From positions 1-34,198 of the forward strand of contig JAMOVK010000097.1 of the NCBI GenBank assembly GCA_027067775.1: a DNA stretch of 34,198 nt, read 5' to 3'. The DNA is from Deltaproteobacteria bacterium. GTDB lineage: Bacteria; Desulfobacterota; Dissulfuribacteria; Dissulfuribacterales; QOAL01. The translations under genes and the position numbers were made by a program. Every line of letters starts with the position of its first letter. Position 1 is the stretch's first letter. This document shows, piece by piece, positions 31,089 through 34,198 of the stretch. The notes below the pieces were generated by a model, which worked only from the letters and a program-made list of their open reading frames with translations, was not told the DNA's origin and ran no database searches.

Positions 31089-33170
31089 TTATGCAGCCTT
31101 TTTGTTTTTTTCCTGGGCCTTTTTTACCAGTTCATCTGCTACTGTCTTGGGTACCTGGCGGTAACATGAAAATTCCATGGTAAACTGGGCCTTGCCTTGA
31201 GTTATTGAACGAAGGTCCGTAGAGTAGCCAAACATCTCTGAAAGGGGTACCTCTGCCTCTATAACACAGGTGTCTCCTTCATCCTGTGCACCAAGTATCA
31301 TTCCCCTTCTCTGGTTCAATGTTCCCATTACTGCACCCTGGAACTCTGAGGGTGTCTCTACTGCCACCTTCATTATGGGTTCCAGTATGGCAGGTTTGGC
31401 CTTTTTAAACCCTTCCTTAAAGGCACCTCGTGCTGCTGCCTGGAAGGCGGTATCTGAAGAGTCAACCGAGTGGGCCTGCCCATCATTAATCACAACACGT
31501 ATGCCAGTAACAGGAAAGCCAAGCAGCTGTCCTTTGTCCATCGCGCTTCTAAATCCCTTTTCTACAGAGGAGATGAACTCGGTGGGTATTGCACCACCTA
31601 CTATCTTGTTCACGAATTCGAATTCACCGTCAAACGGCTCCAGGTAGCCGGCAACCCGGCCATACTGACCAGCACCACCTGTCTGTTTCTTGTGGGTGTA
31701 ATTGAATTCGGCCTTTTGTGTGATGGTCTCCCTGTATGCCACCTGTGGAGCACCTGTGTGAACAATGGCGTTGTACTCTCTTTTCATCCTCTCGATGTAA
31801 ACCTCGAGATGAAGCTCTCCCATTCCAGATATGATGGTATCACCTGTTTCATGGTCAACCCTGACCCTAAAGGTCGGGTCTTCCTTGGCAAAACGTGACA
31901 ACGCCTTGGACATGTTTTGCTGGCTCTTGTTGTCTTCAGGCACGATAGCAAGGGAAATAACAGGTTCTGGAACATGCATTGAGGTCATGCTGTAACGGAT
32001 GCCAGGGGAGGTAAAGGTGTCTCCAGAGGCGCAATCAATGCCAAAAAGCGCTCCAATGTAACCTGCAGGAATCTCCTCTATGTCCTCCATCTGGTTAGCG
32101 TGCATCCTTACTACGCGTCCAACCTTTACCTTTTTGCCTGTCCTGGAGTTGACTATAAAGTCTCCCTTTCTAAGGGTGCCCTGATACACCCTTACATAGG
32201 TAAGCTGTCCATAGCGTCCTTCTTCCAGCTTAAAGGCCAAAGAGACAAGAGGGGCCTCTGGATCAGGCTTCAAGATGACCTCCTTTTCATCGTTTTCAAG
32301 GTCAAGGGCGACATTTTGCACCTCACCTGGATGCGGCAGATACCAGGTGACGGCATCAAGAAGGGGCTGCACACCCTTGTTTTTGTATGCAGATCCCATG
32401 AATACAGGTGTAAGTTCCCTTTTAAGGGTTCCAATCCTGATGGCATCTATAAGAAGCTGTTCGGGAATTTCTCCTTCAAGTGCAGCCTCCATGAGCTCTT
32501 CTGAAAACATAGAGGCGGCATCAATCAGTTCTTCGCGTCTGTTTTCAGCTTCTTCCATGAGTTCTGCTGGAATTTCATCTATCTTGATCTGCTCACCCTG
32601 TTGGCCCTCAAAGTATATGGCCTTCATCTTTACAAGGTCCACCACACCCTTGAAGTCGTTTTCAAGCCCAATAGGTATCTGCATGGCAACTGCATTGTGA
32701 TGCAGTTTCTCCTTGAGTTGTTCCACTACCTTAAAGGGGTTCGCCCCACTTCTGTCACACTTGTTGACAAAGGCTATGCATGGAACCTTGTATCTGGCCA
32801 TCTGGCGGTCAACAGTGATGGACTGGGACTGGACGCCACCTACGGAACAGAGTACCAGAACGCCTCCATCCAGGACCCTTAGAGCCCTTTCCACCTCAAT
32901 GGTGAAGTCTACGTGACCAGGGGTGTCAATAATATTTATCTCGTGGTTGTTCCATTCGCAGTAAGTAGCAGCAGAGGTGATGGTGATGCCGCGCTCCTTT
33001 TCGAGCTCCATAAAATCCATGGTGGCACCTACGCCGTCCTTTCCCTTGACATCATGGATGGCATGAATCCTGTTGGTGTAGTAAAGGATTCTTTCTGTCA
33101 AAGTGGTCTTGCCTGCGTCAATATGAGCGCTGATACCTATGTTTCTAACTTTCTGCGGGTCTTTCTTCAT
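31089..33170 (-). CDS. fusA: Elongation factor G, mitochondrial-like (spdEFG1) form
   Basis: EF-G is the GTPase that drives ribosomal translocation. The 693-residue protein has the five-domain architecture. The GTPase motifs are AHIDAGKT (15-22), RGIT (60-63), DTPGH (82-86) and NKCD (136-139). The switch region [20 protein letters not shown], and [14 protein letters not shown], match mitochondrial EF-G1 and the spirochaete/planctomycete/delta-proteobacterial EFG1 rather than canonical FusA, which has the V.DGAATMDWM.QE type. A canonical fusA may lie upstream of tuf, outside the window. It has its own promoter and a long leader. Confidence 0.93.
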
Positions 33171-33237
33171 TTTTCCTACCTCTTACGTTTATAAGACAAA
33201 ATTGTTTCTTAGGCCTTTTATGGGCCTTTATGTTTGC

Positions 33238-33319
33238 CCTCTAAAGCTATGTTGAAACAGTGATTTTGATGCGGATGAACCGAATCTGCAAGATTTCTCG
33301 CGTTGGAAGACTTTAGAGG
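33238..33319 (-). promoter_or_regulatory. Candidate structured leader of fusA
   Basis: Read on the - strand, CCTCTAAAG (33319-33311) at the predicted 5' end of the transcript is perfectly complementary to CTTTAGAGG (33246-33238), closing a 64-nt loop. Inside lies AATCT-TGC-AGATT, which can form a small hairpin. Together they could form a multibranched 5' UTR element ahead of the fusA SD. No known riboswitch class was recognised. Confidence 0.4.
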
Positions 33320-33325
33320 ATTGCC

Positions 33326-33354
33326 TATCTAACTGCTTGAAAGCGGTTTGTCAA
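33326..33354 (-). promoter_or_regulatory. Sigma70-type promoter of the fusA transcription unit
   Basis: On the - strand, TTGACA (33354-33349), a 17-bp spacer and TAGATA (33331-33326) form a strong vegetative promoter. Transcription would start near 33320, giving a leader of about 150 nt before the fusA ATG at 33170, which has an AGAGGTAGGA SD. It probably also serves the ATPase and OppD-like genes. Confidence 0.8.
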
Positions 33355-33356
33355 GG

Positions 33357-33377
33357 CCAATAACTGTTAAATATTGG
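33357..33377. repeat. Inverted repeat abutting the fusA -35 box
   Basis: CCAATA (33357-33362) and TATTGG (33372-33377) form a 6-bp inverted repeat with a nine-base spacer, two bases upstream of the -35 element and five bases beyond the pyrD stop. It could be a weak pyrD terminator stem without a T-tract, or a regulator site. Confidence 0.3.
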
Positions 33378-33381
33378 TTAA

Positions 33382-34198
33382 TTATTCTATGATTTTTAAT
33401 TCATCAATAGATTGATAGTTATTCCTTTCCATGAAGTCAACAATACCCTGGAGTATTTTTTCGCCTGCTCCAGGATCAACCAAAGTGGCAGTACCCACCT
33501 GTATGGCCCTTGCTCCAGCCATAAAGAATTCTATTGCGTCTTGCCAAGTGGTGATGCCTCCAATACCTATTATTGGAATAGATGTGGCCCTGGCAACCTG
33601 CCACACCATCCTTAAGGCGATGGGTTTTATAGCTGGTCCTGAAAGTCCTCCAAACGTGTTTCCAAGAACAGGTCGTCTTTTTTGAATGTCTATGGCCATA
33701 CCCAGCAGTGTATTTATTAATGATATGGCATCTGCTCCTGCCTTTTCCACAGCAATGGCTATTTCACATATATCGGTAACATTTGGTGACAACTTTACTA
33801 TTATTGGTAAGGCGCATGCCTTTTTGACAGCCTTTGTTACACGGGCTGCCGACTCTGGACTTGTCCCAAAGGCCACTCCACCCTCTTTTACATTTGGACA
33901 GGATATGTTGATCTCCAAGGCGTCAATGCCCTCTACACGGTCGAGTTCCCGGGCCATCTTTTCGTATTCTTCAATGGTGTTTCCAAGGATGTTTACAATC
34001 GTGGTGATCTTTTCTTTTTTAAGCCACTTGATTTTCTGTTCCTTAAAGGCCCTAATGCCTACATTTTCAAGCCCAATGGCATTCAATAGGCCACAAGGGG
34101 TTTCATGAATTCTGGGCGGGGGGTTTCCCTGTCGTGGCTCAAGTGAGATACCCTTAACCACGATGCCTCCAAGCCCTCTTAGATCAATCAGGTCTTTG
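33382..34198 (-). CDS. pyrD: Dihydroorotate dehydrogenase, class 1B (partial)
   Basis: Oxidises dihydroorotate to orotate in pyrimidine synthesis. The reading frame is open to the window edge, so the 5' end is missing; visible codons start KDLIDLRGLGG. Seen are VVKGISLEPRQGNPPPRI, ETPCGLLNAIGLEN, the active-site loop NISCPNVKEGG with the catalytic cysteine of class 1, the lysine strand PIIVKLSPNVTD, and FMN-phosphate binding IPIIGIGGITTWQDAIEF and GARAIQVGTA. Class 1B enzymes work with an electron-transfer subunit PyrK, which would be expected upstream, outside the window. Confidence 0.93.
   Translation of the reverse strand, partial: KDLIDLRGLGGIVVKGISLEPRQGNPPPRIHETPCGLLNAIGLENVGIRAFKEQKIKWLKKEKITTIVNILGNTIEEYEKMARELDRVEGIDALEINISCPNVKEGGVAFGTSPESAARVTKAVKKACALPIIVKLSPNVTDICEIAIAVEKAGADAISLINTLLGMAIDIQKRRPVLGNTFGGLSGPAIKPIALRMVWQVARATSIPIIGIGGITTWQDAIEFFMAGARAIQVGTATLVDPGAGEKILQGIVDFMERNNYQSIDELKIIE

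Follow-up and report, generated by a model that had tools for sequence, protein, structure and literature searches.

The fusA leader opens with a conserved predicted stem

The fusA mRNA of a deltaproteobacterium and of its relatives would open, a few bases from the 5' end, with a stem of nine pairs, P1, that closes an interior of 52–68 nt. The fusA leader with P1 is very probably a real and so far undescribed RNA element, regulatory or stabilising, that occurs in two genera only. The original prediction had seen in it either a cis-regulatory RNA or a 5' stabilising stem; a conserved fusA leader opening with P1 is now found in 11 genomes, whereas the choice between regulation and stabilisation is not decided by the sequence. 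The reading that we tentatively favour, at a probability of roughly 0.45, is that of a lineage-specific structured leader, whose P1 stem forms in the RNA, is recognised by its sequence and tunes fusA expression through mRNA translation or decay.

The analysed stretch of DNA, hereafter the window, comprises 34,198 nt (contig JAMOVK010000097.1). The features of its fusA locus are as follows.

33349–33354, minus strand: -35 box TTGACA, invariant in 11 of 11 aligned leaders
33326–33331, minus strand: -10 box TAGATA, after a 17-nt spacer and inside the invariant GTTAGATA; invariant in 11 of 11
33311–33319, minus strand: P1 5' arm, CCTCTAAAG, from sequence, fold and conservation
33247–33310, minus strand: P1 interior, 64 nt, with weak small hairpins and a moderately conserved sequence
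33238–33246, minus strand: P1 distal arm, CTTTAGAGG, identical in all 11 leaders
33211–33227, minus strand: hairpin H2, AGGCC-CATAAAA-GGCCT, a hairpin at that place in 11 of 11 leaders, with compensatory changes
33179–33182, minus strand: Shine-Dalgarno GAGG of fusA, from the sequence
31089–33170, minus strand: fusA, elongation factor G (EF-G), 693 aa, from NCBIfam TIGR00484 and the list of open reading frames

On the RNA, the order from 5' to 3' is P1, H2, a U-rich stretch, GAGG and the start codon at 33170. As had been predicted, the nine-base arms CCTCTAAAG and CTTTAGAGG are perfect complements with 64 nt between them on the minus strand, and the computed fold places small hairpins inside P1, in line with the smaller hairpin or hairpins proposed within the stem. 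When the G-U pairs at its ends are counted, P1 is a stem of 11 pairs. The predicted RNA from 33321 to 33168 folds at -35.1 kcal/mol, as compared to -24.65 ± 3.79 for its shuffles (z = -2.76). The earlier estimate of a few percent for a chance origin also held: when the leader (155 nt) was shuffled 1000 times with its dinucleotides preserved, 3.3% of the shuffles contained a perfect inverted repeat of at least nine bases. This fraction falls to 0.2% when the repeat is required to start in the first 10 nt, and of 220 unshuffled tiles of 155 nt taken from the window, 11 contain a repeat of this kind. Taken from the window alone, the evidence for P1 is suggestive only.

The fusA locus and its predicted promoter

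The fusA product is a full EF-G, which matches TIGR00484 with 1012 bits against a cut-off of 659. The intergenic region 5' of fusA is 211 nt long, and the upstream reading frame, which ends at 33382, presumably encodes a dihydroorotate dehydrogenase-like protein, judging by eye from its sequence. The genome contains a single match to rpsG, on a different contig from fusA; fusA is thus not located downstream of rpsG here, and may need a control of its own. In E. coli, the str operon, which encodes EF-G, is controlled by ribosomal protein S7, as stated in PMC2704228. Two more EF-G-like genes are present in the genome (G000:C23:10842-12860 and G000:C72:1796-3856), 48% and 38% identical to the fusA of the window, and they have counterparts in most genomes of the family.

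The promoter and the start site were deduced from conservation and position, as TTGACA and GTTAGATA are invariant in all 11 leaders, and transcription would accordingly start at approximately 33319–33322. In all 11 leaders, P1 begins a few nucleotides past this predicted start. A simple promoter scan of the window did not include the fusA promoter among its listed sites; by our count, the -10 box matches TATAAT at just three of six positions. The GAGGT sequence of the Shine-Dalgarno region is also found in family members without the leader.

The element is restricted to fusA in two genera

To collect fusA upstream regions, a DNA search of 60 related genomes was combined with a protein search of the family's 19 genomes. 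The promoter and leader are common to 11 genomes, namely the window, G001–G005, G007 and G008 of the first genus (g1) and G011, G014 and G016 of another (g4), and lie directly 5' of fusA in each of them. The element is absent from all six other family genomes with a readable fusA upstream region (G009, G010, G012, G013, G015 and G017), and EF-G is 86–89% identical in the family genera without it. Left out of these counts were G006, which has no match for this EF-G copy, and G018, which is 55% complete and has no EF-G match at that cut-off. Seven loci (L031–L035, L037 and L046) that are apparently the same contigs as several of these genomes were counted once.

A covariance model of the promoter and P1 (R1) yielded 11 strong matches in 46 genomes of the order, at those fusA sites only (E ≤ 6.4e-22), together with a single weak match in G025 (E = 0.027). 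Run on 34 loci that lack the element, either fusA or paralogues, R1 gave weak matches only, the best at E = 0.033. The pair CCTCTAAA-N45-75-TTTAGAGG occurs at one site each in 10 of the 19 family genomes and nowhere else in them, G011 having altered letters, while its mirrored control was found in one of the 19. The element is thus present at one site per genome, at fusA only. In the window's own genome, GTTAGATAGGCAA occurs at four sites with at most one mismatch; three are away from fusA, and none of these is followed by the leader. A search of the plasmid collection gave no match.

We also read 29 other fusA upstream regions from the rest of the order for a P1 architecture; a 30th, L180, was not located. 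Ten were testable, with a promoter and a leader of adequate length, 13 had no recognised promoter and six were too short. A P1-like architecture beat the shuffles in just one of the 10 testable leaders (G040), where the stem is a tandem repeat, and this candidate was rejected. In two genomes of another family (loci L158 and L160, from G030 and G022), a possible closing stem, TCCGGG/CCCGGA, with its arms approximately 80 nt apart, lies near the predicted 5' end of the fusA leader; it is not above the shuffle level (0.245 and 0.095).

Conservation of the P1 arms

At fourfold-degenerate positions, fusA identity is 43% among members of the first genus and 36% from one genus to the other, and the silent sites are therefore close to saturation, near the loss of any memory of common descent. 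In the leaders of the 11 genomes, by comparison, identity is 100% in the distal arm, 92% in the 5' arm, 56% in the interior and 46% in the downstream part. When the separate 9-mers of the leader are ranked by conservation, the two arms come out on top, and we judge the finding to be real because these two words are perfect complements. With its conservation in 11 genomes, P1 is no longer plausible as a chance repeat. That the element stayed unchanged while the silent sites drifted suggests a control of fusA, and offers a short target for testing. Only two genera, both of uncultured bacteria, have it, and other translation genes with structured leaders are already known.

Conservation and covariation of the arms in relatives had been named as the checks on the stem. 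Both arms are kept in 11 of 11 leaders, so that a lack of conservation did not materialise as a refutation. The covariation check came out neutral: none of the nine P1 pairs is changed on both sides, which neither proves nor refutes pairing, as the arms are nearly invariant. The changes that occur are confined to the 5' arm (G011, G014 and G016), and the distal arm never varies. In G011, two changes in the 5' arm convert C-G to U-G and A-U to G-U, and both pairs are kept in the sense RNA; the ninth pair does not form in G014 and G016. The ACATAG sequence just before the distal arm is largely conserved too. The leader alignments were made without a structure-aware aligner, and shuffle results over homologous leaders ignore kinship and thereby overstate independence.

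The main rival to sequence recognition is a constitutive 5'-terminal stem, working without a regulator, that shields the fusA mRNA from 5'-end-dependent decay in the manner of ompA. Here the 5' arm would be fixed because it lies where transcription begins, and the distal arm would be forced to follow. As with an ompA-type stem-loop, P1 would sit only a few bases into an abundant mRNA, at a position kept in all 11 leaders relative to a start predicted from sequence. In a growing cell, few proteins are as abundant as EF-G, and fusA is presumably highly expressed; moreover, P1 is kept in G011, even though the fusA start is approximately 390 nt away from the start of the leader. In an ompA-type stem, however, pairing matters and not sequence, whereas the arms of P1 are conserved in sequence, with a distal arm identical in all the leaders and a 5' arm that varies in three, the opposite of what a protective stem predicts. 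The conservation of ACATAG also falls outside such a requirement. The invariance of the distal arm thus appears to exceed the needs of a purely stabilising stem, and its being more constrained than the 5' arm points to recognition of the sequence. We hold a purely protective role to be somewhat unlikely.

H2 changes its sequence yet retains its pairing among the few relatives available. Between G014 and G016, all six pairs are kept via two two-sided and two one-sided changes, while in five leaders of the first genus two of five pairs are changed on both sides. Pair counts as high were reached in 115 and 76 of the 500 shuffles of the tool, respectively, so that with these few sequences chance is not rejected. 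The summed folding energy of H2 over the 11 leaders is -106.1 as compared to a shuffle mean of -62.0, and none of 500 shuffle sums was as low, a contrast that is inflated by relatedness. The reverse complement of H2 (33211–33227) scores as terminator-like on the plus strand, where no gene evidently uses it.

The arms could alternatively act as DNA, as a transcription-factor operator with inverted 9-bp sites at the transcription start and approximately 75 bp downstream. In favour of an operator, the sequence of the arms is conserved rather than their pairing alone, and an inverted arrangement is typical of sites that proteins bind. However, the arm spacing is 52, 52, 53, 62, 63, 63, 64, 65, 66, 66 and 68 in the 11 leaders, a spread of about one and a half helical turns with no fixed phase, which RNA accommodates easily. 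Furthermore, the paired site is found at fusA alone, and the changes in H2 argue for RNA. Single copies of CCTCTAAAG are not enriched over the mirrored control in nine genomes of the genus, and a transcription-factor regulon using a single arm was rejected on the same grounds. We therefore regard an operator as unlikely, and in our judgement the fusA leader quite likely acts as RNA.

Computed ensembles of the leader

Full-leader ensembles favour P1 in seven of the 11 leaders (P = 0.37–0.97), and give it a probability of at most 0.05 in G004, G007, G016 and G011. This failure in four leaders implies either that a partner assists P1 or that the energy model is inadequate. In the G004 and G016 ensembles, the Shine-Dalgarno region is instead the partner of the 5' arm (P = 0.72 and 0.77).

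A folding switch would use such pairings to time or gate translation: an internal CTTTAGA would be the initial partner of the 5' arm, to be replaced later by the distal arm, or by the Shine-Dalgarno region. The internal motif, a 6–7-nt complement of the 5' arm, is present in seven of the eight genomes of the first genus (shuffle p = 0.002–0.088 each). On the other hand, the longest internal complement is 3 nt in the window and 4–5 nt in the three g4 genomes. Sequestration of the Shine-Dalgarno sequence by the 5' arm was rejected: in none of the 11 leaders does the arm complement the last 45 nt ahead of the start codon better than in shuffles (p = 0.13–1.0), and the ensemble effects are inconsistent, blocking of the distal arm giving no consistent drop in Shine-Dalgarno access. 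Such a switch appears improbable.

The RNAalifold consensus contains P1 alone, the interior being 52–68 nt long and without a common fold. A P1 that closes a multi-branched 5' region resembles the P1 of an aptamer; yet an interior that varies by 16 nt, and a single gene carrying the element, fit a metabolite riboswitch poorly. Rfam 15 gave no match in the window at the gathering threshold, and none in 33100–33420 even up to E = 5. Within the fusA leader, the scan of the window reported no terminator-like site for the minus strand; a transcription attenuator was rejected on this basis, and no terminator switch is seen. We consider a riboswitch very improbable.

In G011 (locus L121), approximately 240 extra nucleotides separate the leader from the start of fusA, and the leader part contains a strong hairpin with a T-rich stretch behind it, which is terminator-like by eye.

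A possible partner of P1

Under the favoured reading of a structured leader recognised by sequence, P1 would form in the RNA and be read most likely by a protein, and the bound partner would change the translation or decay of the fusA mRNA. Since only fusA carries the element, the simplest regulator would be one concerned with EF-G alone, and we propose on this ground a feedback partner, perhaps a translation factor or a ribosomal protein. Autogenous control of fusA by its leader is a possibility. The specific version, in which EF-G or a ribosome-associated sensor of EF-G supply binds the invariant P1 helix and represses the fusA mRNA, is fairly improbable; such a loop would have arisen in this lineage, whose fusA is separate from the str operon.

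Comparison with known leaders

Our searches of open-licence PMC papers gave no title or abstract opening that describes this fusA leader. The nearest published elements appear to be the rpsL motif of Pelagibacter and the attenuators of rpsL and of streptococcal fusA, whose anatomy as described differs; the comparison covered these descriptions and the Rfam scans. The rpsL motif of 'Candidatus Pelagibacter ubique' (Meyer et al. 2009, PMC2704228) is a str-operon leader that occasionally precedes fusA. Like the fusA leader, it has a P1 that closes a junction, is restricted to one lineage and has no ligand assigned. However, it belongs to an alphaproteobacterium, is found mainly before rpsL and forms a three-stem junction with covarying stems in more than 900 metagenomic copies, whereas here fusA stands alone behind its own promoter, with a nearly invariant P1 and no covarying junction.

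PMC2965389 describes leader and attenuator elements that precede rpsL and, in streptococci, fusA. They are likewise RNAs before translation-factor genes and diverse between lineages; as presented there, they are terminator-based attenuators, whereas the scan of the fusA leader found no terminator-like site for the minus strand. Autogenous ribosomal-protein leaders (such as the 20 candidates in PMC7247131) resemble the fusA leader in serving a single gene of the translation apparatus and in being often lineage-specific. They have a likely ligand, and several imitate rRNA; for the fusA leader, both a partner and mimicry would be conjecture. Neither 'EF-G' nor 'elongation factor' occurs in the main text of PMC7247131.

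Hairpins before fusA in other orders

A simple scan of the fusA upstream regions from the protein search (up to 300 nt each; 78 regions, from 80 loci of which two had no upstream sequence) gave a terminator-like hairpin in 42. Many share a hairpin of the form CCCCATCTGG-N-CCAAATGNGGGG-TTTTT, which in Desulfobacterales and Syntrophales lies close behind a TTGACA promoter and 17–247 nt ahead of fusA. It was extracted at 17 of 28 loci tried (L055, L059, L064, L066, L073, L077, L079, L083, L085, L088, L092, L093, L096, L099, L101, L104 and L110). Rfam gave no match on 16 loci with such hairpins, and the strict CCCCATCTGG/CCAAATGNGGGG pattern occurs in two of 395 genomes of the phylum, at one place each. 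These hairpins may be fusA attenuators in other orders, and they suggest that leader control of fusA recurs in the phylum in unrelated forms.
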